Assembly: GCA_036375715.1 (NCBI GenBank) | Contig: DASVBS010000031.1 | Coordinates: forward strand, 1-64,000 | Length of the DNA stretch: 64,000 bases | Source of the DNA: Longimicrobiaceae bacterium | GTDB lineage: Bacteria; Gemmatimonadota; Gemmatimonadetes; Longimicrobiales; Longimicrobiaceae | Direction: 5' to 3' | Part shown: one piece after another, positions 7,382 through 59,320 of the stretch | How the letters are laid out: each line of letters begins with the position of its first letter | Position numbering within the stretch: the first letter of the stretch is position 1 | The notes under the pieces: generated by a model | The model's database searches: none | Seen by the model: the letters and a program-made list of their open reading frames with translations, nothing else | Told to the model about the DNA's origin: nothing | Position numbers and translations under genes: made by a program

Positions 7382-7388
7382 GAGATGA

Positions 7389-7498
7389 GAAGCTAGGAGC
7401 TAGAAGCTAGAGTGGGATTCGGGCGATAACGCCGCCACGGCCGGAGTCGCGTGCAGCGTATTCTGGCTTCTAGCTTCTCGCAGCTAGCTCCTGATTCT
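7389..7498. repeat. Paired inverted heptamer array A (waaA-uvrA intergenic)
   Basis: The left arm has 7-bp units GAAGCTA, GGAGCTA, GAAGCTA in exact register at 7389-7409, flanked outside by TGAGATGA. The right arm at 7464-7498 has TGGCTTC, TAGCTTC, TCGCAGC, TAGCTCC, TGATTCT, followed by GTCATCTCG. The right arm is the reverse complement pattern of the left, and even the outer flanks (TGAGATGA / TCATCTC) match. The spacer is about 54 bp. This lies between divergent genes, so it also occupies their promoter region. Confidence 0.8.
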
Positions 7499-14231: not shown

Positions 14232-14408
14232 GAATTTTGAATTTTGGCTTTTGAATTTCGAATTACGAATTACGAATTACGGGGGCGATCCGCAGACTTC
14301 AGCCGAGCCCAATTCAAGATCCAGAATTCAAAATTGTAAAATGGTGCTCGGTCGTCTGCTGCCGGCACCCGTCAGTCATTCATAATTCATAATTCGTAAC
14401 TCGTAACT
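14232..14408. repeat. Paired inverted heptamer array B (upstream of gyrA)
   Basis: The left arm at 14232-14280 is seven 7-bp units in exact register: GAATTTT, GAATTTT, GGCTTTT, GAATTTC, then GAATTAC three times. The right arm has CATAATT twice (14381-14394) and CGTAACT twice (14395-14408), the reverse-complement pattern. Between them, 14311-14338 holds AATTCAA, GATCCAG, AATTCAA, AATTGTA, a third degenerate array in the right-arm orientation. The left arm begins six bases after the amidohydrolase stop codon. Base composition is far more AT-rich than the flanking genes. Confidence 0.85.
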
Positions 14409-41484: not shown

Positions 41485-42852
41485 GTGATCGACCTGAGCC
41501 AGCCGCTCTCCCCCGCCGACCTGGTGTCCGCAATTACCCGGATGTGGGAGCTGTCCGCCCGCAAGATCCGCTCGATCGCCTCCGACTTCGACCCCGCACT
41601 CGGGGCCCCCGTATTCACGGTGGAAGGACGGTATACCACCCGGGGCTGGACGGAATGGACGCAGGGCTTTCAGTATGGCTCGGAGATCCTCCAGTTCGAC
41701 GCCACCGGCGAGACGGAGTTCCTCGAGTCGGGCCGGCGGAACACGCTGGAGCGGATGGCGCCGCACGTCACCCATTTTGGCGTCCACGATCACGGCTTCA
41801 ACAACGTCAGCACCTACGGAAACCTCCGCCGCCTCGTGCTGGAGGGCCGCGTACCGCGCGATCCGTGGGAGCTCGCCTTCTACGAGATGGCGCTGAAAGC
41901 CTCCGGAGCGGTGCAGGCTCATCGCTGGACCGAGCTGCCCTCGGGGGAAGGGTACATCTACTCCTTCAACGGCCCACACTCGCTCTTTGCGGACACCATC
42001 CGGTCGCTGCGCTCGCTCGCCGTTGCCCACCAACTCGGGCATACCCTATCGGGGGAGAACGACCGAAGCGTCTCGCTGCTCGAGCGCCTGGTAGTGCATG
42101 CGCGGACCACCGCACGCTACACGGTCTACTACGGCGAGGGACGCGATCACTACGACGTGCGCGGACGGGTAGCCCACGAGAGCATCTTCAACGTGAACGA
42201 CGGGCAGTATCGCTGCCCGAACAGCCAGCAGGGCTTCTCGCCCTTCACTACCTGGACGCGCGGGCTTGCCTGGATCATCTGCGGCTACGCGGAGCAGCTG
42301 GAGTTCCTCCAGACCCGCTCCGACGAAGAGCTGGCTCCGCTCGGCGGCCGTGCCGAGATCGAGGGGATGATGCAGAGGGCAGCCCTGGCAACGGCGGACT
42401 TCTACATCGAGAACACGCCGACCTGCGGGGTCCCCTACTGGGACACGGGGGCTCCTGAGCTGCACCGACTGGAGGACTACCTCTCGCGGCCGGCGGACCC
42501 GTTCAACGACGTGGAGCCGGTGGACAGCTCGGCGGCGGCGATTGCCGCGCAGGGGCTCCTCCGCCTGGGCACTTACCTCGGTCGCGAGGGCGACGGTGCG
42601 CGCTACTGGCAGGCCGGGCTCCGCGTGATGAGGACCCTGCTGGACGAGCCTTACCTGAGCACCTCCCCGGATCACCACGGGCTGCTGCTGCACGTGGTGT
42701 ATCACTGGCCCCGGGGGTGGGACCACGTACCGCGGGGAAAGCGGGTGCCGGCGGGTGAATCGGCGATGTGGGGCGACTACCACCTTCGCGAAGCCGCGCT
42801 CTATCTGCAGCGCGTGGCTCGCGGTGAACCGTACCTCACTTTCTGGGCGTGA
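41485..42852 (+). CDS. GH88-like unsaturated uronyl hydrolase
   Basis: A 455-residue (alpha/alpha)6-barrel protein resembling glycoside hydrolase family 88, which releases unsaturated uronic acids left by polysaccharide lyases. Visible elements: helix SAITRMWELSARKIRSI, GRYTTRGWTEWTQGFQYGSEIL, HVTHFGVHDHGFNNVSTYGNL with conserved His/Asp, NGPHSLFADTIRSLRSL, QGFSPFTTWTRGLAWIICGYAEQ and TPTCGVPYWDTGAPEL. There is no signal peptide, so it acts on imported fragments. GTG 41485 is used. It is coupled to an SDR gene by a 4-base overlap. Confidence 0.8.
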   Translation: MIDLSQPLSPADLVSAITRMWELSARKIRSIASDFDPALGAPVFTVEGRYTTRGWTEWTQGFQYGSEILQFDATGETEFLESGRRNTLERMAPHVTHFGVHDHGFNNVSTYGNLRRLVLEGRVPRDPWELAFYEMALKASGAVQAHRWTELPSGEGYIYSFNGPHSLFADTIRSLRSLAVAHQLGHTLSGENDRSVSLLERLVVHARTTARYTVYYGEGRDHYDVRGRVAHESIFNVNDGQYRCPNSQQGFSPFTTWTRGLAWIICGYAEQLEFLQTRSDEELAPLGGRAEIEGMMQRAALATADFYIENTPTCGVPYWDTGAPELHRLEDYLSRPADPFNDVEPVDSSAAAIAAQGLLRLGTYLGREGDGARYWQAGLRVMRTLLDEPYLSTSPDHHGLLLHVVYHWPRGWDHVPRGKRVPAGESAMWGDYHLREAALYLQRVARGEPYLTFWA

Positions 42853-43652
42853 GCGCCCCGGACGACCCGACGACAGGAACGATGAGAAAAGTCGCACTGG
42901 TGACCGGCGGCGCGCGGGGGATCGGGCTCGGGATCTCCGAGTCGCTCGCCCGGGAGGGGTACGACCTGGTGCTCTGTGGACAGCGTCCCGCCGAGGCGGT
43001 CGGGGAGGTGGTGCAGTCGCTGGAGCGTTTCGGCGGCGCCGTCCACTACGTCACCGCCGACGTGAGTGACGGCGAGGCCAGGGCACGGCTCCTGGCCAGC
43101 GCGCGGGAGCGCTTCGGCCGGCTGAACCTGCTGGTGAACAACGCCGGGGTGGCACCGCGGGTCAGGAACGACATCCTCGACACCACCGAGGAGAGCTACG
43201 ATTGGGTGCTGAGTGTGAATCTGCGCGGACCCTTCTTCCTGACTCAGGCGGTGGCCCGCTGGATGCTCGAGCAGCGTCGGGAAGATCCCTCCTTCGAGGG
43301 ATCGATCGTGTTCGTGACCTCGATCTCCTCCACCGTGGCCTCCACCAACCGGGTGGAGTACTGCATCTCCAAAGCGGGGTTGAGCATGGCTGCGCAGACC
43401 TGGGCGGTGCGGCTGGCCGAGTTCGGGATCCCCGTGTACGAGGTTCGTCCCGGGGTGATCCAGACGGACATGACCGCGGGCGTGCAGGAGCGCTACAACC
43501 GGCTGATCGAACAGGGTCTCATGCTCCAGCCCCGCTGGGGCCTCCCGGAGGACGTGGGTCGCGCCGTCGCCATGCTCGCCCGCGGCGACCTCAGCTATTC
43601 CACCGGCCAGGTGATCATGGTGGATGGGGGAATGCTGGTGGATCGACTTTGA
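42849..43652 (+). CDS. Short-chain dehydrogenase/reductase (3-ketoacyl-ACP-reductase-like)
   Basis: A 267-residue SDR: cofactor motif TGGARGIG near residues 19-26, NNAGVAP, catalytic Ser around 158-160 and Y171-x-x-x-K175 (EYCISKAG), with the PGVIQTDMT loop. Although annotated relatives are often called FabG-like, pairing with a GH88-type hydrolase suggests reduction of a keto-sugar or keto-uronate (inference). GTG 42849 overlaps the upstream stop (GTGA). Confidence 0.9.
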   Translation: MSAPDDPTTGTMRKVALVTGGARGIGLGISESLAREGYDLVLCGQRPAEAVGEVVQSLERFGGAVHYVTADVSDGEARARLLASARERFGRLNLLVNNAGVAPRVRNDILDTTEESYDWVLSVNLRGPFFLTQAVARWMLEQRREDPSFEGSIVFVTSISSTVASTNRVEYCISKAGLSMAAQTWAVRLAEFGIPVYEVRPGVIQTDMTAGVQERYNRLIEQGLMLQPRWGLPEDVGRAVAMLARGDLSYSTGQVIMVDGGMLVDRL

Positions 43653-43664
43653 GGGGCAGGTGGG

Positions 43665-44005
43665 GATTCTGAATTCTGAATTACGAATTACGAATCGCTG
43701 CTCATGTCCTACCCTCCTGCCGACGACGACGCCCGACGACGAGAGGTGCTCGAGCGGCTCGCCGCCGCCGCTCGCCGGCTGGGCCTTCCGCGCGAGCGCC
43801 TCGCCCTCCTCCTGCGCAAGCTCGAAGCGAACGAGGAGGCCACGCGAAGCTTCCTCGCTCGCGAAGTCTACGGAGTGACCGAGGAAGAGTTGGACGAGAT
43901 GCTCAGGCGGGAACTGGGAGAGGGAGGGGATTGATGCCGGTGAGCAACTCAAAATTCAACATTGAGAATCTACCATTCGTAATTCGTAATTCGTAATTCA
44001 ATACC
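43665..44005. repeat. Paired inverted heptamer array C, enclosing a small gene
   Basis: The left arm at 43665-43698 is GATTCT, GAATTCT, GAATTAC, GAATTAC, GAATCGC. The right arm at 43950-44005 is eight 7-bp units in exact register: CAAAATT, CAACATT, GAGAATC, TACCATT, CGTAATT three times, CAATACC. The arms are inverted with respect to each other (GAATTAC against GTAATTC). The left begins 12 bases after the SDR stop codon; the right covers the stop codon of the minus-strand Nudix gene. A 76-codon gene fills the space between the arms. Confidence 0.85.
43704..43934 (+). CDS. Small helical protein located between heptamer arms
   Basis: A 76-residue, highly charged helical protein (MSYPPADDDARRREVLERLA, then LGLPRERLALLLRKLEANEE and TEEELDEMLRRELGEGGD). 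It has normal high-GC codon use, unlike the AT-rich arms on either side. It starts 6 bases after the left arm and ends 15 bases before the right arm. No family recognised. It may be an ordinary operon member after the SDR gene or a gene carried by the repeat element. Confidence 0.65.
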   Translation: MSYPPADDDARRREVLERLAAAARRLGLPRERLALLLRKLEANEEATRSFLAREVYGVTEEELDEMLRRELGEGGD

Positions 44006-44447
44006 GAACCCCCTCAGCCTCCAGCAGGATCCTCGAGCATACCGATCCGTGGCGGGCGGCCTCGATGAGAAGGGAGAGGTCGGTGGTCCACTGCTGCTCG
44101 ACGTAGGCCGTTCCGGTGGTGCGTGCTCGGCGCACGTCGGGGGCACCGCTCACCACCACCGCTTCCAGGTCCATCAGGATCAGCAGGTACTCGCCGCGGT
44201 CCGCGGCGCGGATCCCGACGAAGCGCCTAGCAGCCAGCTCCGCGCCTAGCTTCTCTTCTCCCAATCGCCGCAGGGCCGCTTCGGGCAGCTCACCGGGTTT
44301 GAGCGATACGGCCGGGAGGCCCCACAGCAGGGCGAGCTCCGGGTCGTGGGGCGGACGGCGCACGGCCAGGAACGCCGCTGGTCTGGCGCGATCCCGCACC
44401 ACCGCCGCAACCGAGCATTTGACTGGCTTGTCCAGGATCTCACTCAC
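43998..44447 (-). CDS. Nudix-like hydrolase
   Basis: A 149-residue protein with a weak Nudix pattern: ALLWGLPAVSLKPGELPEAALRRLGEEKLGAEL stands where GX5EX7REUXEEXGU is expected, with several Glu residues kept but a partly degenerate box. The following beta strands (RFVGIRAADRGEYLLILMDLEAVVV) fit the fold. GTG 44447 is used. It lies 4 bases after the SAM hydrolase gene and its stop codon is inside a heptamer arm. Confidence 0.65.
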   Translation of the reverse strand: MSEILDKPVKCSVAAVVRDRARPAAFLAVRRPPHDPELALLWGLPAVSLKPGELPEAALRRLGEEKLGAELAARRFVGIRAADRGEYLLILMDLEAVVVSGAPDVRRARTTGTAYVEQQWTTDLSLLIEAARHGSVCSRILLEAEGVRY

Positions 44448-44451
44448 CGCT

Positions 44452-45294
44452 CTATCCCTGTTCCCCGGCCTTCGACCCATCCGTCGCCTCGAGCGACGAT
44501 CGGCGCACGACCTCGACCGGATCGCTGCGGCGGATCCCCAGCGCCTCGGCCGCCGACGCACCGTTCACCGAGACCTCTACGAACCCGGAGCTCCCGATGA
44601 TCAGGAACGGCGCCCCCGGGATGGCTCCCGCGTAGGTCGTGCGGATTTCCCGCAGCTCGATCTCGCCACCGCGGCCGTGGACTCGCACCGCGCCGTCCGC
44701 CAGCAGCGCCTCGGTGAGGTTGGTGACGCAGTTCCCGAACCGGTCCACGTGGAGAACGCGCCCGCGAATCCGATCCCCACTGAGGTGTGGCTCCAGCGGT
44801 GGGAGCCGCCGAGGATCCGCGACGGGTGGGCCGAGGGTGGCCGAATTCACCCCGCGAGCGAGGGCGGCGCCCAGCGGCGCAAAGATATCACGGCCGTGAA
44901 AAGTCGTGCTCACCGTCGGTCGAAAGAAGCGCCGCTCGGTGACCTCGCGGACCACCGCGTTCGGCTCCCGATCGAGGAGGTAGCTGAACACACCGTTGTC
45001 CGGCCCGACGAAGCGCTGTTCCGCCGCCTCTACCACGATGACCCTCCGCTCGCTCCCCACGCCCGGATCCACCACCACCACGTGCACGGTCCCCGCAGGG
45101 AAGTAGGGGTAGGCCGCAAGCAGCGAGAAGGCGGCTGCCTCCACGTCGCCAGGAGGAATCTCGTGGCCGAGGTCCACGATCGAGACCCCGGGCGCGCTAC
45201 CCAGCAGGACCGCCTTCATCGTCCCCACGTAGTGATCGCGCCCCCCGAAGTCCGTCAGCAGCGAAACGAGTCCGGTAGACTCTCCAAAATCCAC
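44452..45294 (-). CDS. SAM hydroxide adenosyltransferase (DUF62 family)
   Basis: A 280-residue enzyme that splits S-adenosylmethionine into adenosine and methionine with an activated water or hydroxide. Motifs: LVSLLTDFGGRDHYVGTMKAVL, IVDLGHEIPPGDVEAAAFSL, VVVVDPGVGSERRVIVVE, FVGPDNGVFSYLL and TTFHGRDIFAPLGAAL, with the C-terminal GSSGFVEVSVNGASAAEALG. GTG 45294 is favoured because GGAG stands 5 bases before it and a TATAAT lies just upstream, excluding the TTG at 45342. Confidence 0.9.
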   Translation of the reverse strand: MDFGESTGLVSLLTDFGGRDHYVGTMKAVLLGSAPGVSIVDLGHEIPPGDVEAAAFSLLAAYPYFPAGTVHVVVVDPGVGSERRVIVVEAAEQRFVGPDNGVFSYLLDREPNAVVREVTERRFFRPTVSTTFHGRDIFAPLGAALARGVNSATLGPPVADPRRLPPLEPHLSGDRIRGRVLHVDRFGNCVTNLTEALLADGAVRVHGRGGEIELREIRTTYAGAIPGAPFLIIGSSGFVEVSVNGASAAEALGIRRSDPVEVVRRSSLEATDGSKAGEQG

Positions 45295-50336: not shown

Positions 50337-50517
50337 GAATTTTGGATTTTGGATTTTGGATTTTGGATTTTGAATCAGAAGTCGTCGTCGATTGCGAATT
50401 GTAAGTGACGAGCCCGCTGATAGTTGTTCGTTGGAGCTTACTGTGTAGCAGTTCGGGCTGCGTCCGACGATTCGGCCTCAGAGCCAATTCAAAATTCAAA
50501 ATTCAAAATCAAAAATT
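50337..50517. repeat. Paired inverted heptamer array D
   Basis: The left arm at 50337-50378 is GAATTTT, GGATTTT four times, GAATCAG in exact register. The right arm at 50485-50517 is CAATT, CAAAATT, CAAAATT, CAAAATC, AAAAATT. The arms are inverted (GGATTTT against CAAAATT). The right arm covers the stop codon of the dehydratase gene. The arm sequence differs from loci C and E (T-tract heptamers and no GAATTAC), yet both arms changed together. The rest of 50221-50515 holds no gene. Confidence 0.85.
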
Positions 50518-58306: not shown

Positions 58307-58573
58307 CAATTACGAATTACGAATTACGAATTAACGGCAAATCACAGAGGCCGCAGAGGGTGACACGGAGGGCACGGAGGATCATTGGAAAAACTCGCCG
58401 CATGTAGAACCGGCCACATTGAAGCTCTTAAACACAACGACTATGCGGCTTCGTTCGGGCGGAACGGATGCACTCCTCCGCGCTCTCTGCGCCATCCTCC
58501 GTGACCTTCGTGGTTCCAATCCCAGTCCATCCAGACCTCACAATTCGTAATTCGTAATTCGTAATTCGTAATC
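58307..58573. repeat. Paired inverted heptamer array E with inner nonamer-type arms
   Basis: The outer left arm at 58307-58334 is CAATTAC, GAATTAC, GAATTAC, GAATTAA. The outer right arm at 58539-58573 is CACAATT, CGTAATT three times, CGTAATC. Inside them is a second inverted pair with about 9-bp units: CACAGAGGC, CGCAGAGGG, (TGA) CACGGAGGG, CACGGAGGA on the left (about 58343-58381), and the complementary CTCTCTGCG, CCATCCTCCGTGA, CCTTCGTGG on the right (about 58482-58514). No gene is seen in 58137-58582; the right arm ends 10 bases from the stop of the esterase gene. Confidence 0.8.
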
Positions 58574-58582
58574 CCTTAGTCG

Positions 58583-59320
58583 TCAGCTTCCCGCCATCTT
58601 CCTGACCACCGGCTCCACGATCGATTCCCAGAGGTCGTACCCGCGGGCGTTCAGGTGGAGGCCGTCCTCGATGAACAGCGCGGGGTCGGGGGTTCCGTCG
58701 CTCCGCAGCATCGGGGTGTAGATGTCGATGAACTCGAGGCGCGGATCGGTTTCGGTAAACCGGCGGATCAGGTCGTTGGTCTCCCGGATACGATCGACGA
58801 TACTCCAGCGCGCGACGCTCGGCTTGACCGCGATGTAGGCGATGGGGGTCTCGGGTAGCTCGGCGTGGACGATCCGGACGAAGGATTGAAAGTCCTCCAG
58901 CACCTGCTGCGGCGTGTCCCCCTCCCACAGGTCGTTGTCTCCGGCGTAGACGACGATCGCCCGTGGCCGGTACGGCAGCACGATACGGTCGGCGAACTCG
59001 ACCACGTCGGACATCTGCGAGCCACCGAAACCGCGGTTGAGCACCGGCAGGCCCTCGAAGTCCTCCTCCAAGGTTTCCCACATCCGGATCGAGGAGCTGC
59101 CGACGAAGAGGACGCCGCCCGGAGCGGGCGGATGTTCCTGGTCGGCCGCCTCGAAGGCCTGGATGTCGGGCTCCCAACGGGACGTCGCCGCCGGCGGAGC
59201 GGCGCTCGAGCACGCGGCCAGCATCACTCCCAACAGCAGCGCTCCGATCACAGGCCCGAGGATGGGCGACGGAACTGCACCGCGGCGCTCTCGCGCCGTC
59301 CCGCGGTTCCGCGCGCTCAC
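58583..59320 (-). CDS. SGNH/GDSL-type lipoprotein esterase
   Basis: A 245-residue lipoprotein (MLAACSS, Cys37) with the SGNH hydrolase fold: VLFVGSSSIRMWETLEEDF (nucleophile Ser near 75), NRGFGGSQMSDVVEF, VVYAGDNDLWEGDTPQQVLEDF (Gly and Asn blocks) and the terminal DGLHLNARGYDLW with Asp and His. It probably removes acyl (acetyl) groups from carbohydrate. Its ATG overlaps the upstream DUF1080 gene by 4 bases (ATGA). Confidence 0.9.
   Translation of the reverse strand: MSARNRGTARERRGAVPSPILGPVIGALLLGVMLAACSSAAPPAATSRWEPDIQAFEAADQEHPPAPGGVLFVGSSSIRMWETLEEDFEGLPVLNRGFGGSQMSDVVEFADRIVLPYRPRAIVVYAGDNDLWEGDTPQQVLEDFQSFVRIVHAELPETPIAYIAVKPSVARWSIVDRIRETNDLIRRFTETDPRLEFIDIYTPMLRSDGTPDPALFIEDGLHLNARGYDLWESIVEPVVRKMAGS

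Follow-up and report, generated by a model that had tools for sequence, protein, structure and literature searches.

Inverted heptamer arrays around a small gene of a Longimicrobiaceae bacterium as probable members of a species-wide intergenic repeat population

Genes and heptamer arms at locus C

The window, i.e., the whole stretch of 64,000 nucleotides analyzed here, contains at the site termed locus C two heptamer arrays in inverted orientation and, between them, a gene of 76 codons:

42849..43652, plus strand: upstream gene for a short-chain dehydrogenase/reductase (SDR; Pfam PF13561/PF00106)
43666..43695, plus strand: left heptamer arm, exact period-7 runs with GAATTCT units followed by GAATTAC units
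43704..43934, plus strand: 76-codon gene, supported by homologues in 15 other genomes, codon-position GC and an AlphaFold2 model (pLDDT 84)
43949..43999, minus strand: right heptamer arm, with degenerate units at 43949-43974 (read from the sequence) and an exact run at 43975-43999
43998..44561, minus strand: convergent gene for a NUDIX-domain protein (Pfam PF00293; open reading frame)

The exact runs of the left arm extend over 43666-43682 (GAATTCT) and 43678-43695 (GAATTAC), and that of the right arm comprises 3.6 copies of GTAATTC, the reverse complement of GAATTAC, with degenerate period-7 units reaching back to about position 43949. The presence of heptamer arms around the gene, as described in the initial annotation, was thus confirmed by exact period-7 runs on the one hand and an open reading frame with conserved homologues on the other. 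The reading frame starts with ATG and exhibits codon-position GC values of 0.82/0.47/0.77, a coding pattern in agreement with the earlier view of a real gene with normal high-GC composition. Distances of 6 and 15 bases between gene and arms had been given and correspond well to the 6-8 bases found on the left and about 14 on the right when degenerate units are counted; 40 bases separate the gene from the exact right run. The arms had also been stated to touch the stop codons of both neighbors. This holds true for the NUDIX gene, the stop codon of which (43998-44000, minus strand) overlaps the right arm, and not for the SDR gene, which ends (43650-43652, plus strand) 13 bases before the left arm, so that the NUDIX stop is the only neighboring one to overlap. 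Next beyond the NUDIX gene lies a gene for a SAM hydroxide adenosyltransferase.

The 76-codon gene and its homologues

The gene belongs to a single-copy family present in 16 of 21 Longimicrobiaceae genomes, the assignment to this family of the Gemmatimonadota being derived from named records. Homologues with 42-51% identity occur in one clear copy each in 15 of the 20 other Longimicrobiaceae genomes, while a class-wide sample of 149 genomes yielded one marginal match outside the family (E = 7.6e-4). The earlier statement that the protein has no recognized family is therefore correct insofar as Pfam and NCBIfam gave no match over the cut-off, and incorrect insofar as a clear family of Longimicrobiaceae homologues exists. 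An Rv0078B-related antitoxin (PF18993) was considered and rejected, as the score of 17 bits lies below the cut-off of 27.1 and the model is matched by only one of 16 family members. AlphaFold2 predicts three helices (pLDDT 84, pTM 0.55). Fold searches of the PDB with this structure yielded no match better than E = 9.9, and sequence-profile matches in the PDB, mainly to designed helical proteins, were taken as composition effects. A small helical partner-binding protein would be a guess only.

The initial annotation had asked whether homologues are always flanked by heptamer arrays. At 13 of the 15 homologue loci a heptamer run of at least 18 bases beside the gene is absent, and bracketing arms were found at none of the 15. 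In three genomes the gene directly follows glyA (G018, G015 and G016; labels L063, L066 and L015, respectively), with identities among the three of 86-91% for glyA and 64-86% for the small protein. The gap between the two genes measures 11 bases (GGAGAAAGGCG) and is devoid of arrays in G018, comprises 94 bases with an inverted AGTGCCC/GGGCACT pair in G015, and spans 116 bases with direct CAGGGGG/CAGGGGA arrays in G016. The same junction thus exists in three array states with the gene always kept, indicating that arrays are gained or lost independently of the gene. The further question of whether related genomes lack both arms and gene is thereby addressed in a sister context. This junction provides a direct view of arrays in a fixed gene context. 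None of 40 relatives possesses the SDR gene of the window at a threshold of E <= 1e-60, so an alignment of the site itself lacks a counterpart there. The 76-codon gene is vertically inherited; because its neighbors here differ from those in every examined relative, it may have been relocated at some past time. In itself, the bracketed gene is ordinary.

Heptamer arms in the genome

The genome (4.37 Mb, 67% GC, 95% complete) was sampled over 911,616 bases (0.91 Mb, 21%) on nine contigs. This sample contained 134 arms and 43 inverted pairs, a density to be read as an upper estimate since all contigs besides the window's own were picked for the GAATTAC motif. Period-7 runs of at least 18 bases numbered 113, compared with 0-8 for most other periods and 21 for period 8 (14 and 21 being multiples of seven) and with 0-1 period-7 runs in block-shuffled sequence; a 7-base tandem unit far above other periods is likewise the mark of the heptamer arrays of Xanthomonas and cyanobacteria. 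Across the whole genome, GAATTACGAATTAC occurs 188 times in forward and 194 times in reverse orientation, and its reversed control is absent. Among the sampled arms GAATTAC, GAATTTT, GAAGCTA, GAAGCCA and GTTATCC are recurrent words.

Neighboring arms are almost strictly convergent, with the order plus-minus found 43 times vs. two cases of minus-plus, and both arms share a matching unit in 34 of the 43 pairs (permutation mean 19.5, maximum 28 in 10,000 permutations). None of 86 arm midpoints fell inside genes called with a simple in-house caller, and the median distance amounted to 18.5 bases to a stop codon vs. 52.5 bases to a start codon. Spacers range from 17 to 279 bp, with locus C representing the longest of all 43 and the only pair that holds a gene.

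At least five inverted heptamer pairs are located in the window, those besides locus C at 14232-14408, 50339-50514, 58308-58583 and 7388-7489 (units GAATTTT/GAATTAC, GGATTTT, GAATTAC and GAAGCTA). The spacer 58334-58541 of the pair 58308/58542 carries CACAGAGG/CGGAGG-type repeats at both ends, inverted and forming a second inverted-repeat layer. On the same contig beyond the window (C31, 247171-247244), and also in L167 (7897-7970), the heptamer is altered by one or two bases at a time along the array, from GTAATTC via GTAATTT to CAAAATT. This gradual change suggests that heptamer words evolve in place. Arrays may also break assembly, because contig C14 (L089, position 1) begins within one.

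Origin of the arrangement and alternative explanations

Based on 34 short genes with usable gaps on both sides, independent placement of arms would lead to 0.49 brackets in the sample, and one was seen. Hence no particular cause has to be invoked for the bracket: the arms themselves exceed chance, the bracket does not. We consider it likely that the arms at locus C are ordinary members of the species-wide population of intergenic heptamer repeats and that the gene lies between them by chance and is not carried. Heptamer arms, usually as inverted pairs, would expand and be replaced over time in the short stretches that follow stop codons. The probable mechanism is replication slippage together with copying between nearby arms, and selection would remove arrays from coding sequence. 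At locus C the arms would then have filled both gaps beside a short, vertically inherited gene. In a transcript that covers the two arms, these may pair to form a long stem enclosing the message of the gene, with an effect on expression that would be modest at most.

Less probable, though still a serious possibility, is that the pairs are maintained by selection as RNA or DNA structures, in that a long-range stem would serve to terminate the transcript, to direct its processing by RNase III or to protect the mRNA, and the loop would contain the message of the gene. The near-strict inverted order, the matching of units and the position of arms shortly after stop codons are consistent with such a role. 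For RNA across locus C, a 25-bp stem enclosing the gene is predicted (-144.7 kcal/mol, z = -2.4), with three of 100 shuffles being as good. The earlier notion of a gene within a potential hairpin is thereby supported in silico in its geometry, and any function of the hairpin is putative. On the other hand, complementarity of an arm to its partner is no higher than to arms of other loci with the same unit class (24 pairs): within the AATTACG class, the mean pairing score was 47.5 for the own partner vs. 48.6 for arms of other loci. Co-evolution of arms beyond the unit class was accordingly not seen, and apart from the common word nothing points to selection for pairing at individual loci. In addition, convergent gene pairs show only a slight trend (10 of 42 vs. 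72 of 400), spacer length varies widely and no terminator-like site is present.

It is rather doubtful that the left arm acts as a 5' untranslated region which sets the translation of the small gene and replaces a Shine-Dalgarno site. The arm stops 6-8 bases short of the ATG and a GGAG-like site is lacking here, several relatives feature GGAG- or GAGG-like sites at that very position, and the AGTGCCC-type array of G015 likewise abuts the gene start. From position, an effect of the left arm on translation is possible, as it occupies the place of a ribosome-binding site just as the G015 array does. Most arms, however, reside closer to stops than to starts.

Slippage alone leaves the inverted pairing with matching units unexplained. 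We regard it as unlikely that a hitherto undescribed process copies matched inverted arms, using the same words in unrelated bacteria, and in doing so enclosed the gene, the message of which would be regulated by forming the loop of an extended RNA stem. If true, this would be a new process acting at pairs of nearby intergenic sites.

Very improbable is a mobile element that would carry the small gene as cargo between heptamer arms acting as its terminal inverted repeats, a possibility that had been raised at the outset. The gene fills the space between the arms almost exactly and its neighbors vary among genomes, as such an element would imply. However, 42 of the 43 sampled pairs are gene-free, their spacers are unrelated and share short patches only, homologues are unbracketed and present in single copy per genome, and arrays come and go at the syntenic glyA junction independently of the gene. 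Units differ and arms vary between loci, so there is no fixed terminal repeat, and the combination of conserved terminal repeats with related internal sequence that characterizes MITEs or transposons is lacking. Target-site duplications are absent, as outer flanks are no more alike than permuted ones (longest common word, mean 3.72 vs. 3.57 +/- 0.14). Searches for the locus in plasmids and for the 76-residue protein in phages gave no match, and no heptamer array was found on plasmids, where the low-complexity filter of BLAST may hide matches. Equally remote are REP/REPIN-like elements whose dispersal would depend on a RAYT (Y1) transposase or a reverse transcriptase: these resemble the arms in being dispersed and intergenic in many copies per genome and often in forming inverted pairs, but neither a Y1_Tnp nor an RVT_1 match exists in this 95% complete genome, which argues against two possible generators, while relatives possess both, and the unit is a tandem heptamer and not a conserved palindrome of 20-40 bp.

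Comparison with known heptamer repeats

With regard to known systems, the arrays described here are a further member of the known and poorly understood kind of heptamer arrays found in Xanthomonas, Beggiatoaceae and cyanobacteria. The GGGAATC repeats of Xanthomonas are intergenic and dispersed, with more than 100 arrays per genome and 70-75 inverted "convergent" pairs, and on average 28 nt separate them from where the upstream gene ends (Rehm et al., 2015; PMC4692102). Our arms share the heptamer unit, the intergenic and dispersed occurrence, the inverted pairing and the closeness to the upstream gene end. In contrast, the G-rich unit of Xanthomonas may give rise to G-quadruplexes, while the words found here are mostly AT-rich (GAATTAC/GAATTTT, together with GAAGCTA and GTTATCC) in a genome of 67% GC, and Xanthomonas belongs to a phylum different from the Gemmatimonadota.

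TAACTGA arrays occur in Beggiatoaceae, Cyanobacteria and Bacteroidetes with no known mechanism and have been proposed to set translation in place of a Shine-Dalgarno site in Beggiatoaceae (MacGregor, 2015; PMC4679880). Like the arrays studied here, they are intergenic, feature one unit in unrelated phyla and are sometimes situated directly before start codons; their loci differ between strains. Unlike our arms, which mostly form inverted pairs near stops, those of Beggiatoaceae are almost all direct (with one indirect case) and mostly precede starts. Several heptamer words per genome are a further point of likeness, by description only, with cyanobacteria such as Calothrix PCC 7601, for which several different tandem heptamers per genome are mentioned in a secondary citation (in PMC4692102). 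Our genome resembles these organisms in containing several words.

The heptanucleotide repeats of cyanobacteria go by the name of STRR and are spread among members of this group. Among 395 Gemmatimonadota genomes, the 21-mer GAATTACGAATTACGAATTAC is confined to the genome studied here, with 90 copies in forward and 90 in reverse orientation. It was also present in 30 IMG/VR contig stretches (L159-L188) with GC contents of 0.36 to 0.67, some of them with inverted pairs, and this occurrence in contigs of very different GC indicates that organisms unrelated to one another share identical heptamer words. The wider pattern outweighs the bracketed gene: a single species of the Gemmatimonadota carries hundreds of inverted arms, the main word of which is absent from 394 genomes of the phylum, and its richness in heptamers poses the same puzzle as that of Xanthomonas, Beggiatoaceae and cyanobacteria.
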